From positions 1 to 48,089 of the forward strand of contig CAMVHE010000017.1 in the NCBI GenBank assembly GCA_947167215.1: a stretch of 48,089 nucleotides of DNA. Reading direction: 5' to 3'. Under the pieces are notes generated by a model. That model did not search any database, was not told the origin of the DNA, and saw nothing but the letters and a program-made list of their open reading frames with translations. Origin of the DNA: an uncultured Clostridia bacterium (lineage in GTDB: Bacteria; Bacillota; Clostridia; Christensenellales; Aristaeellaceae). Positions 1 through 46,344 of this stretch are shown here, piece after piece. Made by a program: the position numbers and the translations under genes. Each line of letters opens with the position of its first letter. Positions within the stretch are counted from its first letter, which is position 1.

Positions 1-15
1 GTCACCTTCGCCAGG

Positions 16-130
16 GTTGAAAGCGCTTTTTACGACCGCCACACCGCTCCTCCCCGTCAGAGCTTTTAATATGCGGTCAACAGAGCCACAGATTTGGTGA
101 TACGTCCATGGGTGTTATGACGCTTTCAAC
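16..130. repeat. 10-bp inverted repeat at the left edge
   Basis: GTTGAAAGCG at 16-25 is repeated as its exact reverse complement CGCTTTCAAC at 121-130. The segment lies downstream of the ATPase/RloB pair and holds no convincing gene. A short plus-strand reading frame runs from the window edge to a stop near 69 and could be the tail of a gene cut by the window, but I do not recognise it. A small palindrome (CCAAAG/CTTTGG) sits at 138-151 without a T-run. The repeat could mark an element edge; that is inference. Confidence 0.35.
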
Positions 131-155
131 ATAGGTCCCAAAGACCTTTGGCTAG

Positions 156-713
156 TCAACCGGACTCTGTTTCAAGCCCCCACTTCCAGCCTTTGGGCTT
201 AAGTGGCGGGTAGTTGACTTCCAGGTAGTTGGTGCGGGTGATCTTGCTGCACAATTCTCTGATCTGACCCTTATGCGCTTCGTAGCTCTGAATTCCTGTC
301 ATTTGTGCTATGACAGCGCTGTTGGTTTTCTTTCCCTGGTTCTTAAGAGAGATGTCACCAAAGTGCAGCAACATTATCTGCATGGTACATGGATTGGCAA
401 AGATAATAAGCTTTTCCGCGGCCTTCCTCTTTCCGAGAAATCTATTGATTTTAGCTTTGACCTGAACATACTCTCGATAAGGTTCCTTATCAGTGTCACA
501 GAATACCAGTATGATCTCATAGCTGTTATTCTGAAATTCGTTCTGAAACCGGCTGGGAATGTTCGAAGCACTTTTCACGTTGATCAATGTAAAACTATAT
601 GCGGAATTCCAGACATTCAGATCAAGCAAGCGCCTGAAATAATGATAATCTTCATATCCCTCGCAGATAACGCATATCCTGTGCCTGCTTTGGACTGGAG
701 GCCGGGAACTCAT
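156..713 (-). CDS. RloB-like protein (partner of AAA ATPase)
   Basis: This 185-residue protein resembles the RloB family, small proteins encoded beside RloA-type ATPases. What is seen: an N-terminal strand ending in CEGYED (Glu18), a hydrophobic strand with FCDTDKEP (Asp73 and Asp75), and ANPC followed by LLHF (Asn107, His117). The Glu plus DxD spacing is TOPRIM-like, so a metal-dependent nuclease is plausible but not proven. The family's usual NPCFELW stretch reads NPCTMQI here, so a normally conserved acidic residue is missing. The start overlaps the ATPase stop by 4 bases (ATGA), indicating translational coupling. ATPase/RloB pairs are linked to phage abortive infection (AbiL-like) and resemble the PARIS ATPase/TOPRIM design. 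The local sequence is AT-richer than most of the window, consistent with transfer. Confidence 0.7.
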   Translation of the reverse strand: MSSRPPVQSRHRICVICEGYEDYHYFRRLLDLNVWNSAYSFTLINVKSASNIPSRFQNEFQNNSYEIILVFCDTDKEPYREYVQVKAKINRFLGKRKAAEKLIIFANPCTMQIMLLHFGDISLKNQGKKTNSAVIAQMTGIQSYEAHKGQIRELCSKITRTNYLEVNYPPLKPKGWKWGLETESG

Positions 714-5906: not shown

Positions 5907-6797
5907 TCAATCCGCCGGTGTTTCCGGAGCTGCCTGTTCCGCGTCTGCATCTGCATTTTCCTGCAGGGTATTTGATATAGTTGCCGTCTCCGCACGGTGG
6001 ATAGCTTCATCCATATTCCGGCTCAGGTCCATGCTCTGAAAATCTCCGTCTTCCTCGGGCAGCATCAGCGTGAACCCGGGTGTGGAATCGAAAAATGCAT
6101 CCGCGTTGCCGATGCTTACCTGCAGCACATGCCCGCCCCGGGTCAGGTCTTCTGTAATGAAATGGAAATGCCAGCCGATGCTGTTGAGTCCGCTCATGAA
6201 CGAGGGGCAGTACAGGCCAACCATCGTTCCGCTGATATTCTCATAGTCGCATTCGATCTGATCTGCGGCGAGCGCGACATCCAGTTCCCGGTAAGGCTTT
6301 TCCTGCTTGTATTCGCTGCGCACCTTGATGGCAGAAAAATCGCCGTCGATTTTAACCATATAGAAAAGATTGGCGCCATTCTCGCGCACCATGTGATTCA
6401 GCTGTTCCTGAAGCGAAGCCATGTCCGGTACGTCTGTCAGTGGTATCTGGATATCGGGCTCAAAAAATGTCACATTGGAAAACGGGACTGTCTCGCTATC
6501 CGGCGGGATCACGATGCTTCCGTCGTGGATTGCCTGGTAAACCACGCCTTCCAGAACGATCATTTCACCATTGACGCCTTCAAAGGTGCCGATGCCGGTA
6601 TCTCCGTGCTCCCTCAGCTCTCCCACAGTGATGATTCCGTCAAAATGGCCCTGGGCGAGGGATTGCAGCAGAGCAACCTGATAGATGGACTCCGGATCCG
6701 AAAGCGTATTTTCTTCACAGCTGCCGCCAGGACTGAATGACGCAAGACACACCAGTATACAGACAAGCGCCATCCGCAGACAAGTCTTTCGTTTCAT
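5907..6797 (-). CDS. budA: Alpha-acetolactate decarboxylase, exported
   Basis: The protein converts acetolactate to acetoin. From ATG 6797 (AAGGAGGG six bases upstream) it has 296 residues. Seen: a basic, hydrophobic N-terminus (MKRKTCLRMALVCILVCLAS) that is a clear export signal, then the family motifs GELREHGDTGIGTFEG, VTFFEPD, FYMVKIDGDF, IKVRSEYK and GWHFHFITEDLTRGGHV. The HxH and GGH histidines are the zinc ligands. Exported forms are known in some Bacillota. The C-terminal tail (about 40 residues, Ala/Glu-rich) is not part of the family core. No acetolactate synthase lies nearby, so it stands apart from any butanediol operon. A cysteine near the end of the signal (GGSC) is not a good lipobox. 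Confidence 0.85.
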   Translation of the reverse strand: MKRKTCLRMALVCILVCLASFSPGGSCEENTLSDPESIYQVALLQSLAQGHFDGIITVGELREHGDTGIGTFEGVNGEMIVLEGVVYQAIHDGSIVIPPDSETVPFSNVTFFEPDIQIPLTDVPDMASLQEQLNHMVRENGANLFYMVKIDGDFSAIKVRSEYKQEKPYRELDVALAADQIECDYENISGTMVGLYCPSFMSGLNSIGWHFHFITEDLTRGGHVLQVSIGNADAFFDSTPGFTLMLPEEDGDFQSMDLSRNMDEAIHRAETATISNTLQENADADAEQAAPETPAD

Positions 6798-6980
6798 GGA
6801 AAACCCTCCTTCATCTTTCCTGTTCCGTACCTTATGTGTACTGCCATCTGACCATGGATAATCATACTTTAGTCGGAATGATTTTGCAACAATCCCTGCC
6901 GGAGGCATACCATAGGCAGGAAAAGCCTCCTGCGGCCTTCCGGACAGCCAATTCCAGCCCCGTCCTGTTCTTCTCTCTGC

Positions 6981-7900: not shown

Positions 7901-7983
7901 CCAAAAAAATTTTGGATTTTAAAAATTCCCTCTTGACTTTATCGCTTTCATGCGTTATGCTTTAACGCGTAAAAGCAATAAAG
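7901..7983 (+). promoter_or_regulatory. Symporter promoter with shared operator box
   Basis: TTGACT (7933-7938), 17 bases, then TATGCT (7956-7961) form a good housekeeping promoter. An A/T-rich palindrome (7901-7915) and A-tract lie just upstream, like an UP element. A 25-base box at 7959-7983, with core TTTAACGCGTAAAA (7961-7974), covers the expected transcription start. It is nearly identical to a box at 46320-46344. A looser copy, TTTCATGCGTTATG, lies at 7946-7959 between the -35 and -10. The placement suggests repression by a shared regulator. Confidence 0.65.
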
Positions 7984-24319: not shown

Positions 24320-24343
24320 ATGCACAGGATTCGAGGTGCACTC

Positions 24344-25336
24344 ATGAACATCTATGATATCGCCCGCCTGGCCGGCGTATCTTCCGCCACCGTGTCGAGG
24401 GTGCTGAACCATGCACCGCATGTCAGCGCCGCTTCCCGGGAAAAAGTGGAAGCCGTCATCCGGGAGCAGGGCTTCATCCCCAATGCCATCGCCCAGACCC
24501 TCAATACCCGGCAGAGCAGGACCATCGGCATTGTCTGTCCGGTCATTTCCGACCTGAACCATGCCATTCCCGTAGCGGAACTCACCCGGCTTCTCCGCTC
24601 CTCCCAGTATGAATCCCTGCTGGTCAATACGGAAACCAACCTGTCCTCCAAGCGTTCCGTCTTCACCTCCCTGATCGAACGGCAGGTGGACGCCATCATC
24701 GTCATCGGCTGCAATACCACGGCCGTGGAAAAGGCAGACTTCCTCTATGCCGCCAGCCGCCTTCCCGTCTTCATCGTCAACGGCTATATCGAAGGGGAAA
24801 ACATCTACTGCACGCTCTGCGATGAGGGAAAGGTCACCTATGAAGCTGCCAGGACGCTGCTGTCCCAGGGCTGTTCCAGCATCCTGTACCTTTATGACAG
24901 CGAAACCTACAGCGGCCATGAGAAGCTGGCCGGCTACACCCGTGCCATGAAGGAAAGCGGCCTGCCCCTGCTGGTGCGGCGGGTGGTTTCCGAAGGCACT
25001 TCCTATTATAAAAGTCTGGCCGTTACCTGTGAGCTGCTGGAGAGCACCTCTTTTGATGCCGTTATCGCAGCAGACGATTCTCTGGCACTGGGCGCCGGAA
25101 AAGCCCGCATTCTTGCTGGCCTTCCTCCTGTTCCCATGCTCGGGTTCAACAATACCATGCTTTCCCAGGTGGCTACCCCTTCGCTTTCTTCGGTGGATAA
25201 CCGCATCAAGCAGCAGTGCCTGCTGACCGTGCAGAGCCTGCTCACCGTCCTCCAGGGAAACTCTGCGGCCGCACGCATCACCCTGGACGGAGAAATCATC
25301 GTTCGCAGCACCTTTCAGAAAAATGCTTCGAGGTAA
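24344..25336 (+). CDS. LacI family transcriptional regulator
   Basis: About 330 residues from ATG 24344 (GAGG upstream). Seen: the N-terminal helix-turn-helix MNIYDIARLAGVSSATVSRV, the hinge region with VEAVIREQGFIPNAIAQ, then a periplasmic-binding-protein-like ligand domain (SRTIGIVCPVISDLNHAI, DAIIVIGCNTTA, DAVIAADDSLALGAGKA). It should bind the divergent palindromes at 24153-24168 and 24306-24319 and release them on binding a sugar or sugar acid. The EamA transporter gene starts 6 bases after its stop and is probably on the same transcript. Confidence 0.92.
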   Translation: MNIYDIARLAGVSSATVSRVLNHAPHVSAASREKVEAVIREQGFIPNAIAQTLNTRQSRTIGIVCPVISDLNHAIPVAELTRLLRSSQYESLLVNTETNLSSKRSVFTSLIERQVDAIIVIGCNTTAVEKADFLYAASRLPVFIVNGYIEGENIYCTLCDEGKVTYEAARTLLSQGCSSILYLYDSETYSGHEKLAGYTRAMKESGLPLLVRRVVSEGTSYYKSLAVTCELLESTSFDAVIAADDSLALGAGKARILAGLPPVPMLGFNNTMLSQVATPSLSSVDNRIKQQCLLTVQSLLTVLQGNSAAARITLDGEIIVRSTFQKNASR

Positions 25337-41720: not shown

Positions 41721-42155
41721 TCAAAGATTGCTGAGTTCCTCCGGATCCACCAGCTTGATCTGCTTTGCTGTCAGCTCCGCGGAAGCCTTTTTATGGTCAT
41801 TGACCCGGAAAATCATATATGCATTTTCCGCCTTCTTTCCTCCGAGGAAAGCATACATGTATTCCACGTTAATGCCGACCTTGGAGAGAATGCCGAGAAT
41901 CTTATGAAGGCCGCCGGGCACATCGGGGATGGCGACCGCAATGACGGAGCTCACTTTATGAACGAACCCCGCATCTTTCAGTACCGTGCTTGTCTTGTAA
42001 ACATCATCCACGATGATTCTGGCAATGCCAAAATCGCTGGCCTCGGCCAGGGAAAAGGCACGCATATCAATGTTATTCTCCGCCAGCACCTGAGTCATGG
42101 ACTCAAGCGCGCCGGGCTTGTTCTCAAGAAAGACCGATATCTGCTTTACGCTCAT
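41721..42155 (-). CDS. Tandem ACT domain protein of the ior operon
   Basis: 144 residues with two ACT modules: VKQISVFLENKPGALESMTQ at the start and IPDVPGGLHKILGILSKVGI near residue 75. Such proteins beside paaK and ior genes are common in anaerobes and probably sense an aromatic amino acid. AAGGAGG lies 8 bases upstream. It is the last gene of the operon, 12 bases after paaK. Confidence 0.85.
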   Translation of the reverse strand: MSVKQISVFLENKPGALESMTQVLAENNIDMRAFSLAEASDFGIARIIVDDVYKTSTVLKDAGFVHKVSSVIAVAIPDVPGGLHKILGILSKVGINVEYMYAFLGGKKAENAYMIFRVNDHKKASAELTAKQIKLVDPEELSNL

Positions 42156-42167
42156 GATTCTCCCTCC

Positions 42168-43469
42168 TTAAATCTTGCGCTTATCAATAACACGGACGGC
42201 TTTTCCTTCACTGCGGACAATGGACTTGGGCGCCACCAGGGTAACCTTTGCAGTCAGGCCAAGCATCGCACGGAGACCATCCACCAGATCCTTCTGCCTT
42301 GCCGTGATCTCGCCCATGTTGTCGGTGAACATTTCGGGAGTCATTTCCACATGGATATCCAGCGTGTCCGTGTTGTTCACGCGGTCCACCAGAATCTGGT
42401 AATTCACCGGATAGCCCTTATTGAGAAGCACCGTTTCGATCTGGGACGGGAAGACATTGACGCCGCGGATAATAAGCATGTCATCCGTACGCCCGCGGGG
42501 CTTGGTCATCTTCACATGCGTCCGGCCGCAGGAGCATTTTTCCCGGCTGAGGACACAGATGTCCCTGGTGCGGTAGCGGATCAGCGGGAAGGCCTTTTTC
42601 GTCAGCGACGTAAAGACCAGTTCTCCCTGTGTTCCGTCCGGCAGCACTTCTCCGGTCACGGGATCGATGATTTCCGCAATGAAATGGTCCTCATTGATGT
42701 GCATGCCATTCTGAGCAGAACACTCAAAGGCAACACCCGGGCCGCTCAGCTCCGTCAGACCGTAGATATCATAGGCCTTGATTCCCAGCGTCTCCTCAAT
42801 GCTGTGCCGCATCTCCTCCGACCAGGCTTCCGCACCGAAGATTCCCGCCTTCAGCGGAATCTGGTCCGGGGTCAGCCCCATCTCTTTCATCGTTTCACCG
42901 ATATAGGCCGCATAGCTGGGCGTACAGCACAGAATGGTAGCATTCAGGTCCCGGATGAACATGATCTGTCTCTCCGTATTGCCGGAGGACGTAGGAATGG
43001 TCAGACATCCCACCTTGTGGCTTCCGCCGTTGAGCCCGGGGCCGCCGGTAAACAGGCCGTAGCCATAGGAAATCTGGCACACATCCTCATTGGTTCCACC
43101 CGCGGCAGTGATGGCGCGGGCGCAGCAGTCCTCCCACAGGTCAATATCTGCCTGGGTATAGAACGCCACAACACGCTTTCCGGTCGTGCCGCTGGTTGAC
43201 TGAATGCGGACACAGTCCTTGAGAGGGGCACCAAGCAAACCATACGGATAGGCAATCCGCAAATCCTCCTTGGAGAGGAACGGCAGCTTGCATAAGTCTG
43301 CAGTGGAATGGATATCGTCGGGTGTAAGGCCCTTCTCTTCCATCTTCTTTCGATAGTACGGGACATTCTCCCATACATGCCTGACCTGCTTTACGAGGCG
43401 TTCATCCTGCAGTGCAAGGATCTCCTGGCGCGATGCCGTTTCGATTTCCGGCTGATAATATCTCTCCAT
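42168..43469 (-). CDS. paaK: Phenylacetate-CoA ligase (aryl-CoA ligase)
   Basis: 433 residues, normal for PaaK. Seen: the AMP-binding P-loop QSTSGTTGKRVVAFYT, YGLTELSGPGVAFEC, RYRTRDICVL and GRTDDMLIIRGVNVFPSQI, and a C-terminal domain ending SEGKAVRVIDKRKI. In fermenting anaerobes it runs backwards: aryl-acetyl-CoA from indolepyruvate oxidoreductase is cleaved to aryl-acetate, with formation of ATP. GGAAAGG lies upstream. It follows iorB by 30 bases and precedes the ACT gene by 12. Confidence 0.92.
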   Translation of the reverse strand: MERYYQPEIETASRQEILALQDERLVKQVRHVWENVPYYRKKMEEKGLTPDDIHSTADLCKLPFLSKEDLRIAYPYGLLGAPLKDCVRIQSTSGTTGKRVVAFYTQADIDLWEDCCARAITAAGGTNEDVCQISYGYGLFTGGPGLNGGSHKVGCLTIPTSSGNTERQIMFIRDLNATILCCTPSYAAYIGETMKEMGLTPDQIPLKAGIFGAEAWSEEMRHSIEETLGIKAYDIYGLTELSGPGVAFECSAQNGMHINEDHFIAEIIDPVTGEVLPDGTQGELVFTSLTKKAFPLIRYRTRDICVLSREKCSCGRTHVKMTKPRGRTDDMLIIRGVNVFPSQIETVLLNKGYPVNYQILVDRVNNTDTLDIHVEMTPEMFTDNMGEITARQKDLVDGLRAMLGLTAKVTLVAPKSIVRSEGKAVRVIDKRKI

Positions 43470-43499: not shown

Positions 43500-44072
43500 T
43501 TATGCATTTTTGCCAAGGGCAAATGCTTTCTGGTTCAGCTCCAGGAAACGTGCCGGCACGCAGGCGCTCAGCGCTTTCTGCCAGGCCTCTTCCGGGAGAT
43601 CGAAGTAATGAGACAGCCGCCCCATCAGAACAATATTGACCGCCTTGGTGCTGCCGGCCTTCTCCGCCAGCGACAGACAGTCCAGTGCATCCACTTTTGC
43701 CCCGGTGGCGCGCATTTTCGCCACCAGGTCCTCCGGGTACGTCATGGCACCCGTCACCACCGGCATGGGGTCAATCTGCTGGGTCGACGTCACAATCTGC
43801 CCGCCCGGCTTCAGGAACGGAAGCCACCGTGCGGCCTCCAGCACCTCGAAGGAAACGATAAAATCCGCCTCTCCCCGGTCAATGACGGGAGACGCTACCC
43901 GATCGCCATAGCGGACATAGGTAACCACGCTTCCGCCCCGCTGGGACATGCCGTGAACCTCAGAGACCTTTACATCGTATCCCTGTTCCATCAGCAGCCT
44001 GCCCAGCAGCTTGCTGGCCAGCAGGCTTCCCTGCCCGCCGACGCCGACAATCATGATATTCTTGGTTTCCAT
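43500..44072 (-). CDS. iorB: Indolepyruvate oxidoreductase subunit beta
   Basis: About 190 residues, the gamma-type catalytic subunit of the two-subunit enzyme. Seen: KNIMIVGVGGQGSLLASKLLG at the start, VHGMSQRGGSVVTYVR, and the PKAVN-like SKAVNIVLMGRLS-style stretch near residue 125 (STKAVNIVLMGRLSHYF). I choose ATG 44072, which lies about 7 bases from GGAGG; the ATG at 44078 is only one base away from it, though that one overlaps the iorA stop as ATGA. It pairs with iorA. Confidence 0.9.
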   Translation of the reverse strand: METKNIMIVGVGGQGSLLASKLLGRLLMEQGYDVKVSEVHGMSQRGGSVVTYVRYGDRVASPVIDRGEADFIVSFEVLEAARWLPFLKPGGQIVTSTQQIDPMPVVTGAMTYPEDLVAKMRATGAKVDALDCLSLAEKAGSTKAVNIVLMGRLSHYFDLPEEAWQKALSACVPARFLELNQKAFALGKNA

Positions 44073-44074
44073 GC

Positions 44075-45820
44075 TCATTCCTCCCTCTGGGTGCTCTCAA
44101 AGGCGTCCACCCGGCAAAGCTGTGAGCAGACACCACAGCCCACGCAAAGGGTAGCATCCACATGCGCCTTGCCTTCCCGCATGGAGATGGCAGGACAGCC
44201 GATGCGCATGCAGGACTTGCAGCCCACGCAGCGGTCGGTGTTTACCCGGAGCGGCGCTTTGTGCTTAACGTATTTGAGCAGTGCACAGGGCCTTCTGGAA
44301 ATAATGACGCTCGGCTCTTCTGCCGCCATCTCTTCCTTGACGACCCGGTCTGTCTCTGCCAGATCATACGGATCCACGACCCGCACCCGGTTGATGCCCA
44401 TGGCACGGCAGAGCTGTTCTAGATCAATCTTTCCCGCCGGATCTCCCTTGATGTTATAACCGGTGGTCGGATTCTGCTGGTGTCCCGTCATTCCGGTAAT
44501 GGAATTGTCCAGGATAATCACGGTGGAGTTGGACTGGTTGTATGCGATATTTGCCAGTCCCGTCATGCCTGAATGCATGAAGGTGGAGTCTCCGATGACT
44601 GCCACTGTCTTCTTCTCACTCTCTGCCCCCAGTGCCTTGTTATAACCGTGAATGCTGCTTACGCTGGCTCCCATGCACAGGGTCATCTCAATGGAGGAAA
44701 GGGGCGCAACCGCTCCCAGCGTGTAGCATCCGATATCTCCCAGCACCGTCGCATGGTTGCGGTTGAGGGTGTAGAAGAGTCCTCTGTGAGGGCAGCCGGC
44801 ACACATGACCGGGGGTCTCGGAGGAATGACATCGGACAGGGCCTCTCCCACGGCATGCTCCACGCCGAAGGCTTTCGCCACAATGGTCTGATTCAGTTCT
44901 CCGGTAACCGGGAACAGTGCTTTTCCTGTCACGTCCAGTCCCATTGCCCTGCAATGCTCTTCGATAAACGGATCCAGTTCCTCCACAACATAAAGCTTAT
45001 CCACGGAAGACGCAAAGTCCCGGATCTTTCCGTCCGGCATCGGCCAGATCATTCCCAGTTTCAGTACCGGGTACTTGTCCCCGCAGACTTCCTTCACATA
45101 CTGGTAGCTGGTGGACGACGTGATGATGCCGATGCTGTGATCCGTTCCCTCCTCCACGCGGTTCAGGGGGCTCTGCTCTGCAAACTCCGTCAGCTTCCGG
45201 GTCCTTTCTTCCACCACCGGATGACGGCGGATGGCATTACCCGGCATCATGACATACTTGGCAATGTTTTTCTCGTACTGCTTTACCGGCGGCACTACGC
45301 GCTCCGCGGTTTCCACCAGCGACTGCGAATGGGCAATCCGCGTGCACATCTTGAGCAATACCGGAGTATCAAAGGCCTCCGAAATCTCATAGGCTTCCTT
45401 GGCAAAGGCCAGTGCTTCTGCCGAGTCCGACGGCTCCAGCATGGGTATTTTTGCCGCCCGGGCATAATGTCTCGAATCCTGCTCATTCTGAGAGGAATGC
45501 ATTCCCGGGTCATCCGCAACCGCAATGACCATGCCGGCATTTACGCCGGTATAGGAAACCGTAAAGAGCGGGTCTGCAGCCACGTTAAGACCGACATGCT
45601 TCATCCCGCAGAAGCTTCGTTTTCCTGCCAGACTGGCACCGAAGGCAACCTCCATTGCCACCTTCTCATTCGGCGCCCACTCGCAGTAGATTTCATCGTA
45701 TTTGGCTGCCTCCTCCGTAATTTCCGTGCTGGGTGTGCCCGGATAACTGGAGGCCACACTGCAGCCCGCCTCATACAGGCCGCGTGCGGCAGCGACATTG
45801 CCAAGCATCAGCTGTTTCAT
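44075..45820 (-). CDS. iorA: Indolepyruvate ferredoxin oxidoreductase subunit alpha
   Basis: About 581 residues from ATG 45820 (GGGAGG 5 bases upstream). It oxidatively decarboxylates aryl-pyruvates from Trp, Tyr or Phe to aryl-acetyl-CoA, reducing ferredoxin. Seen: an N-terminal pyrimidine-binding domain with EWAPNEKVAMEVAFGAS, GDIGCYTLG and GDSTFMHSGMTGLANIAYNQ followed by DNSITGMTGHQ for thiamine diphosphate, and two C-terminal [4Fe-4S] motifs, CVGCKSCMRIGCP and CVGCGVCSQLC. Length is slightly shorter than usual. It follows the TrpR-like regulator by 20 bases. Confidence 0.95.
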   Translation of the reverse strand: MKQLMLGNVAAARGLYEAGCSVASSYPGTPSTEITEEAAKYDEIYCEWAPNEKVAMEVAFGASLAGKRSFCGMKHVGLNVAADPLFTVSYTGVNAGMVIAVADDPGMHSSQNEQDSRHYARAAKIPMLEPSDSAEALAFAKEAYEISEAFDTPVLLKMCTRIAHSQSLVETAERVVPPVKQYEKNIAKYVMMPGNAIRRHPVVEERTRKLTEFAEQSPLNRVEEGTDHSIGIITSSTSYQYVKEVCGDKYPVLKLGMIWPMPDGKIRDFASSVDKLYVVEELDPFIEEHCRAMGLDVTGKALFPVTGELNQTIVAKAFGVEHAVGEALSDVIPPRPPVMCAGCPHRGLFYTLNRNHATVLGDIGCYTLGAVAPLSSIEMTLCMGASVSSIHGYNKALGAESEKKTVAVIGDSTFMHSGMTGLANIAYNQSNSTVIILDNSITGMTGHQQNPTTGYNIKGDPAGKIDLEQLCRAMGINRVRVVDPYDLAETDRVVKEEMAAEEPSVIISRRPCALLKYVKHKAPLRVNTDRCVGCKSCMRIGCPAISMREGKAHVDATLCVGCGVCSQLCRVDAFESTQREE

Positions 45821-45840
45821 GTTTTCCTCCCTGTTGTTCA

Positions 45841-46161
45841 TCAACCGATCGAATCCGGCTTTTCTTCCGCTTTCCCGATCCGGTAAATAACTTCTTTCAT
45901 GGCTCCGTTCTGTTCATATTCGAGAATATTACGGCGTACCCTGCTGATGGTTGCGCTGCTTGCTCCCGTTGCTCCCAGAATATCGGCATAAACCTTATCC
46001 TGAAGCAGATAGACAGCGACATCAAAGCGCTGTTCCATGCTCCGAAGCTCCGTAGGCGTACAAAGGTCATCAAAAAACCGGCAGCATTCATCCATGTCCT
46101 TCAGGGCAAGGATAGCCTCATACATTCCCATGCTGCGTTCTTTCTTTGTTTTACGGGGCAT
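45841..46161 (-). CDS. TrpR-like YerC/YecD family DNA-binding protein
   Basis: 106 residues from ATG 46161 (GAAAGGAAGGG upstream). Seen: a helical N-terminus (MYEAILALKDMDECCRFFDD), LCTPTELRSMEQRFDVAVYL and a helix-turn-helix reading GATGASSATISRVRRN, the TrpR/YerC signature. In Bacillota such proteins are small repressors of uncertain targets. As the first gene of the ior/paaK operon it is a candidate regulator of aromatic amino acid fermentation, possibly of its own promoter. An upstream frame extends to 46233, but the SD and family start favour 46161. Confidence 0.88.
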   Translation of the reverse strand: MPRKTKKERSMGMYEAILALKDMDECCRFFDDLCTPTELRSMEQRFDVAVYLLQDKVYADILGATGASSATISRVRRNILEYEQNGAMKEVIYRIGKAEEKPDSIG

Positions 46162-46226
46162 TCTTTTCCCTTCCTTTCTGCACAAAACAAAAAAATAACA
46201 TCTTCGGATTTCCGTTCTTTTACATA

Positions 46227-46241
46227 TTACCACATTAAAGC
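46227..46241 (-). promoter_or_regulatory. Candidate operator in the ior operon promoter
   Basis: On the minus strand, GCTTTAATGTGGTAA matches 13 of 15 bases of the box at the divergent acyl-CoA synthetase promoter (GCTTTAATGCGTTAA). It overlaps a likely -10 (TAATAT, 46224-46229) of the ior operon. The -35 is weak. Confidence 0.45.
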
Positions 46242-46289: not shown

Positions 46290-46344
46290 TTGACAAAGCG
46301 GTCCACATCATGTATCATTGCTTTAATGCGTTAAAACAATAAAG
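46290..46344 (+). promoter_or_regulatory. Acyl-CoA synthetase promoter with shared operator box
   Basis: TTGACA (46290-46295), 17 bases, then TATCAT (46313-46318). The 25-base box 46320-46344 carries a TTTAATGCGTTAAA core (46322-46335), an almost perfect dyad placed over the start of transcription. It matches the symporter box at 7959-7983 in 22 of 25 bases. The downstream leader, with CAATAAAG and a GCAG-AAAGGA tail, is also shared. Confidence 0.7.

Follow-up and report, generated by a model that had tools for sequence, protein, structure and literature searches.

A promoter box shared by a symporter gene and a distant acyl-CoA synthetase gene is the probable operator of a HisR (YerC) paralogue

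The closest described relatives of the system discussed here are the histidine repressor HisR (YerC), its paralogue HisR2, TrpR of E. coli, and the tyrosine T-box leaders. The consensus operator of Firmicutes HisR is cacTTTAnnnnnnTAAAgtg, a palindrome of the TTTA-N6-TAAA type, and histidine is demonstrated to be the corepressor of the HisR of R. gnavus (PMC9413887). The half-sites of TrpR are separated by an 8-bp spacer (PMC9413887). Earlier work covers HisR and its motif, the way in which HisR and T-boxes alternate, and the HisR2 paralogues near tyrosine genes (PMC9413887).

The system described here shares with HisR the protein family, the TTTA-N6-TAAA palindrome, the control of transport and synthesis genes, the alternation with T-boxes across genomes, and frequent self-control (PMC9413887). 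It differs from HisR in its targets, which are a symporter, an acyl-CoA synthetase, iorAB, paaK, and an ACT gene and include no his genes, in a separate clade of paralogues without a YGxxGY stretch, in extra half-sites at an 8-bp period, and in T-boxes that read tyrosine. HisR2 of Paenibacillus, Enterococcus, and Carnobacterium, which adjoins tdcP-tdcA-tyrT, is likewise a HisR paralogue on tyrosine-related genes with a HisR-type site. However, the genes of HisR2 are those of tyrosine decarboxylation and transport, whereas the genes here are predicted to serve aryl-acid uptake, CoA ligation, and an indolepyruvate oxidoreductase (IOR) reaction (PMC9413887). TrpR of E. coli belongs to the same fold family (PF01371) and has the same 8-bp spacing of half-sites (PMC9413887), but its half-site is GNACT rather than CTTTA, its genes are others, and a different ligand is expected here. 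In relatives, the symporter and the synthetase are under the control of tyrosine T-box leaders (RF00230), but these act by RNA antitermination on uncharged tRNA, and none is found at gathering score in the window, i.e., the whole stretch of 48,089 nucleotides that was analysed. No title or abstract found in searches of the open-licence PMC literature deals with a YerC/HisR paralogue that controls iorAB, paaK, or the symporter. As far as these titles and abstracts show, the novelty lies in a large clade of paralogues that goes with the symporter, the synthetase, iorAB, paaK, and ACT, together with the extra half-sites and the alternation with tyrosine T-boxes.

The window carries a gene for a sodium:solute symporter (SSF, PF00474; 8011..9561, plus strand), for which aryl-acid uptake is proposed, and a gene for an AMP-forming acyl-CoA synthetase (PF00501, PF13193; 46367..48010, plus strand), whose start is more likely 46376, the beginning of the conserved MPIT. 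Divergent from the synthetase is a minus-strand operon in the order yerC-iorA-iorB-paaK-ACT. Its first gene, at a distance of 205 bp from the synthetase, encodes a HisR/YerC paralogue of the TrpR family, the putative repressor (45841..46161; TIGR02531, PF01371, PDB 3g1c). The others encode the alpha subunit of indolepyruvate ferredoxin oxidoreductase (iorA, 44075..45844; TIGR03336, 730.5 bits, above cut-off), its beta subunit (iorB, 43500..44078; NF005325, above cut-off), a PaaK-like phenylacetate-CoA ligase (42168..43469; TIGR02155, 506.8 bits, under the curated cut-off of 646.3), and an ACT-domain-pair protein (41721..42155; PF19571, 1e-26). Plus-strand ORFs opposite ior-paaK match no family and lie on the wrong strand, and they were set aside. 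An acetolactate decarboxylase gene (5907-6908, minus strand) precedes the symporter by two ORFs and is read from the other strand.

No more than about 1.1 kb separates the symporter and synthetase genes in 9 of the 100 searched genomes (G002, G005, G007, G010, G037, G048, G052, G070, and G097), and several of the regions examined by eye have both iorA and iorB next to the two genes as well. The 38-kb gap in the window is thus a local arrangement of genes that form one set. This fits the original prediction, made from the sequence of the window, that uptake and CoA activation of an acid are coordinated.

That prediction started from a nearly identical 25-base box at the two promoters, with about 22 matching positions, and the window sequence bears it out: 22 of the 25 bases are identical between 7959-7983 and 46320-46344. 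Both copies are located at sigma-70-type promoters with TTGAC-type −35 boxes and 17-base spacers, as had been claimed; read from the sequence, these are TTGACT-17-TATGCT at the symporter (7933..7961, plus strand) and TTGACA-17-TATCAT at the synthetase (46290..46318, plus strand). The symporter operator, CTTTA-N6-AAAAG-CAA-TAAAG (7960..7983, plus strand), overlaps the end of the −10 box and the expected transcription start, and the synthetase operator, CTTTA-N6-TAAAA-CAA-TAAAG (46321..46344, plus strand), lies directly behind the −10 box. Each box scores 9/10 against CTTTA-N6-TAAAG and has the TTTA-N6-TAAA palindrome that characterizes the HisR operator of about 20 bp. A looser extra copy had been proposed at 7946-7959, where the match to the synthetase core is weak (11/14, counted by hand); better supported is a pair of half-sites, CTTTA-N3-CTTTC, over the −35 box of the symporter (7937..7949, plus strand). 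A third, weaker box of the CTTTA-ATGTGG-TAATA type (46226..46241, minus strand; 8/10) lies at the divergent promoter of the regulator operon and had been missed. Of the pair of genes originally envisaged under one regulator both stand, and yerC-iorA-iorB-paaK-ACT joins them as a third member whose first gene likely encodes the regulator.

The box is rare. The 18-bp palindrome GCTTTAACGCGTTAAAGC, with up to 3 mismatches, has two matches in the window, namely the two boxes, and none of 100 dinucleotide shuffles of the window has any match; in the complete genome it again finds the two boxes only, with no match for a reversed control pattern. The whole-genome search that the original prediction had called for also gives, for the 14-mer core TTTAAYGCGTWAAA, perfect matches in the 3.83-Mb genome at the symporter and synthetase promoters and nowhere else. 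At 1 mismatch, there are two more genomic sites for TTTAAYGCGTWAAA, one behind a hairpin 3′ of an ORF, by eye resembling a terminator, and one internal to a long ORF. The bare 14-bp core with up to 3 mismatches gives two matches within the window, which is not above chance since 24 of 100 shuffles equal it. Exact CTTTA-N6-TAAAG sites also number two in the genome (G000): the one in contig 8 is internal to a long ORF and was set aside, and the one in contig 80 (5706-5721, L272) precedes an apparent amino-acid ABC transporter gene at its promoter and was taken as a site of HisR, of which it is probably an ordinary target. Across 100 genomes the exact 18-mer is uninformative, as 55 genomes had a match (up to 3 mismatches) versus 58 for the reversed control, and none of 30 loci inspected from that search is an orthologue of the symporter or synthetase. 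A profile, R1, trained on 28 of 54 boxes gathered (scoring covered 150 of 549 first-look candidates), ranks the two window boxes first in their own genome (E 3.1e-4 and 6.0e-4), a ranking that is circular because both are in the training set. Further matches of R1 that were examined (G232 contig 97 and G238 contig 95) have no recognisable gene in common.

Orthologous promoters reveal which part of the operator is constant, namely CTTTA-N6-TAAAG, often with another TAAAG three bases on. Among the 33 symporter promoters of repressor-bearing genomes, with 1 mismatch allowed, TAAAG-N3-TAAAG is found in 24 (shuffle mean 0.32) and CTTTA-N3-CTTTA in 27 (shuffle mean 0.76), while the spacing controls at periods of 7, 9, and 10 bp give 7, 1, and 3 promoters. 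At the synthetase, TAAAG-N3-TAAAG occurs in 30/33 promoters and the period-9 control in 23/33; owing to a run of A, the 8- and 9-bp periods are not separable there, and the 8-bp period is clear for the symporter alone. The promoters of yerC itself (n = 35, 130 bp each, the window included) score at least 9/10 in 22 cases, with 0.24 expected, and at least 8/10 in 34 cases, with 4.0 expected by shuffling. At least one of these sites (in G254) is the synthetase's own site viewed from the opposite side. In the window, this third box is weak: it scores 8/10, the level at which about 4 of 35 are expected by shuffling. yerC adjoins iorA or paaK in 32 of 34 loci, the exceptions being G238, at a contig edge, and G236, and the synthetase is its divergent neighbour in 13 of the 34.

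The putative repressor scores 85.2 bits with the TrpR-superfamily HisR/YerC model TIGR02531 (cut-off 42.2; 3.2e-24) and 66.7, over 27, with PF01371 (Trp_repressor), and it matches PDB 3g1c at 4.5e-20. It is not in the HisR orthologue group: a tree built on about 106 columns, with long branches, separates 35 paralogues from 23 ordinary YerC proteins by a branch with 100/100 support. The YGxxGY stretch, which follows the recognition helix in HisR, is present in all 23 complete ordinary YerC proteins versus none of the 35 paralogues. Common among the paralogues are M-E at positions 42-43 (34/35 and 35/35) and N78-I79 (34/35 and 35/35). When ten YerC proteins from named loci are added to the tree, six group with the paralogues. 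The remaining four (L181, L186, L194, and L195; two from Erysipelotrichaceae and two from Bacillota) form a second group nearer to ordinary YerC, also without YGxxGY. The yerC genes of this second group adjoin the symporter, divergently in three of the four, and three of the four are preceded by a 9/10 site. The other YerC of the window's genome, on contig 71, heads a his operon (genes read by eye) and is taken as the ordinary HisR.

The presence of the box follows that of the repressor. When 308 genomes of the family were searched with the YerC of the window, 40 passed an E-value of 1e-18; the 35 with E ≤ 3.1e-29, the window's own included, are called repressor-bearing here, and the five weaker ones (G030, G035, G223, G224, and G226) were kept out of that group and of the paralogues in the tree. 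The co-occurrence set comprises 120 loci, the best-scoring synthetase and symporter loci obtained and not all such genes in those genomes, and a site is called present at a score of at least 9/10 within 250 bp upstream. With the repressor, the site is found at 30/33 synthetase and 30/33 symporter promoters (shuffles 1.4 and 1.2 percent), versus 2/27 and 2/27 without it (shuffles 1.1 and 0.5 percent); the genomes in each count are related and hence are not independent trials. Seven of the 60 counted sites lie at 102-212 bp upstream, more distant than the others. The four sites without a repressor come from three genomes, G097 (both genes), G070, and G046. Most repressor-less genomes in the set have an ordinary YerC, yet lack the box at the symporter and synthetase genes. 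The co-conservation of box and repressor gives good support to the common regulator originally predicted for the two distant genes. LacI-type control, for which the window holds a LacI gene (24320-25336), was dropped, as the motif and the co-occurrence fit YerC.

Conservation of the box at orthologues, which had been proposed as a check, is split along the same line: the box is kept in other repressor-bearing genera, but in same-genus orthologues, none of which comes with the repressor, it is absent at this score from all 11 synthetase and all 9 symporter promoters. In the 28 same-genus genomes searched, no YerC of the paralogue clade was found, the best match among them being at 2.0e-17 and 37 percent. 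Therefore, the system may have been acquired in the genome of the window. A conserved intergenic stretch of more than 150 bp, with GCTTTAAAGCG[CA]TAAAG followed by TTG..CAA..GAAAAA and later blocks, is seen in same-genus loci (L044, L046, L048, L049, L050, and L053); it occurs behind differing genes, and no link to the symporter/synthetase regulon was found for it.

In contigs of named genomes, 592 stretches encode synthetase relatives, and the best 80 of these loci were used. The site lies within 200 bp upstream in 41 of the 79 with enough upstream DNA (1.6 expected) and at 7 of the 13 symporters usable within these 80 loci (0.2 expected). All six of the best 80 loci that encode a YerC of at least 60 percent identity have the site, including that of Flavonifractor sp. 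An100 (L168), which combines yerC, iorAB, paaK, ACT, and the synthetase. A perfect site is seen in Butyrivibrio proteoclasticus P18 (L179), with no YerC match in the stretch examined. A simple T-box pattern was not seen before the synthetase in the best 80 of the 592 loci.

T-boxes appear on the same genes in the family. Rfam was used to scan 21 synthetase or symporter loci, mostly picked for a suspected T-box or a missing box, and 15 of them have a T-box (RF00230), 8 at gathering score. The specifier is UAC in all 14 T-box alignments that were read, aligned from the 3′ side, and the register is inferred, as most of the 14 miss one base on the 5′ side. As a check, T-boxes at tyrS in the same family were found at 9 of 14 loci, and all nine, that of the window's own genome included, carry the GAA-UAC signature. 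Among repressor-bearing genomes, five of the six boxless promoters have a T-box by the Rfam scan, those of the synthetase in G219, G220, and G221 and of the symporter in G034 and G333, where the G219 and G221 T-boxes fall just below the gathering score and that of G333 falls 6.5 bits below. The sixth, the symporter promoter of G232, has an 8/10 site. In repressor-bearing genomes, the simple T-box pattern finds a T-box at none of the 60 box-bearing promoters and at 4 of the 6 boxless ones; without a repressor, it finds one at 12 of 54 promoters. A second synthetase copy in G216 (L415, contig 66), which lies outside the co-occurrence table, has the box and then a UAC T-box in the same promoter. 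Thus, protein and RNA control can be stacked and are not strictly exclusive, an observation that bears on the exclusivity of the two modes and leaves the identity of the regulator untouched.

We consider it probable that the box is the operator of the HisR (YerC) paralogue (45841-46161, minus strand), that three promoters form its regulon, and that this regulon serves an anabolic salvage of arylacetate with tyrosine as the likely corepressor. The three promoters would be those of the symporter, the acyl-CoA synthetase, and the repressor's own operon yerC-iorA-iorB-paaK-ACT. When the corepressor, in the likeliest case tyrosine or some other aromatic amino acid, is plentiful, dimers are predicted to bind the CTTTA/TAAAG half-sites side by side at an 8-bp period. 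Bound over the −10 box and the transcription start, and at the symporter also over the −35 box, they would block RNA polymerase. Such a block is the natural reading of repression, because the operators cover the expected transcription start. When the corepressor is scarce, the symporter would import arylacetate, one or both ligases would convert it to its CoA ester, and IorAB would turn the ester into arylpyruvate by reductive carboxylation, with transamination then giving the amino acid. The acid, originally left as any carboxylic acid, would probably be an arylacetate tied to the supply of tyrosine. In rumen bacteria, arylacetates serve as precursors of aromatic amino acids. A tyrA-type gene scores above cut-off in 16 of 21 genomes, that of the window included, so the arylacetate route would be a salvage supplement and not the sole way to tyrosine.

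The direction of the pathway can also be read the other way with the same repressor and operator, so that IorAB oxidises aromatic amino acids, the acyl-CoA yields acid and energy, and the symporter moves the acid. Anaerobes do use IOR in the fermentation of aromatic amino acids, and similar steps have been called reversible (PMC13285125); the same source notes a proposal that IOR works backwards to make amino acids in a methanogen. However, expression under T-box control goes up when charged tRNA is in short supply (PMC2494555), which suits tyrosine supply and not breakdown, and T-boxes on these genes in relatives imply that the genes are needed when tyrosine is short. Since the ligases are moreover AMP-forming, as suits the activation of an acid, we regard the catabolic direction as unlikely.

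It is less likely still that the boxes are bound by the ordinary histidine-sensing HisR, whose gene belongs to the contig 71 his operon, and that the genes are part of a histidine regulon. The core of the published motif is identical, the contig 80 site precedes a transporter of the kind that is a usual HisR target, and G239 has a tandem-type site, CTTTA-N6-CAAAG-CGA-TAAAG, ahead of a hisZ-like gene (contig 46; L412, 1501-1528). The G239 site suggests that the operators of HisR and of the paralogue overlap and that cross-binding is possible. Nevertheless, it is the paralogue clade that the box tracks and not the ordinary YerC present in most of the repressor-less genomes, and the T-boxes on these genes specify tyrosine, not histidine. 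If a promoter segment had been duplicated recently, the 22 identical bases of 25 and the similar leaders would be accounted for without any regulator, but we give this reading hardly any weight, as the sequence beyond the box differs between the two promoters and the half-sites are kept in orthologous promoters of other genera where other bases vary.

The regulation by the HisR paralogue proposed here assigns a regulator, an operator, and a set of genes to an anaerobic route that is poorly charted, in which aryl acids are taken up and reductively carboxylated, and whose host bacteria are known chiefly from metagenomes. It predicts a substrate class for the SSF symporter and the CoA ligase, which family models leave unassigned, and the exchange of protein and RNA control on the same genes allows ideas on how amino-acid sensing evolves to be tested. 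More tentatively, and as a conjecture to which we give somewhat less than even chances, a TrpR-fold repressor that senses tyrosine or an aryl precursor, with dimers side by side on 8-bp CTTTA arrays, may have taken the place of the tyrosine T-box, or been added to it, on a set of arylacetate-salvage genes more than once. That this happened repeatedly is suggested because the second YerC group adjoins the symporter and is also without YGxxGY.

Apart from the regulon, the left end of the window holds a HEARO RNA (1-218, minus strand; RF02033, 105.3 bits, above gathering score), right where the contig ends. HEARO RNAs usually adjoin genes for HNH nucleases of the IsrB/IscB kind. At 156-1981 on the minus strand lies a gene for an AAA_21 ATPase, annotated in Pfam as a putative AbiEii toxin, with a partner ORF of 185 aa that matches no family; the two are possibly a phage-defence pair.
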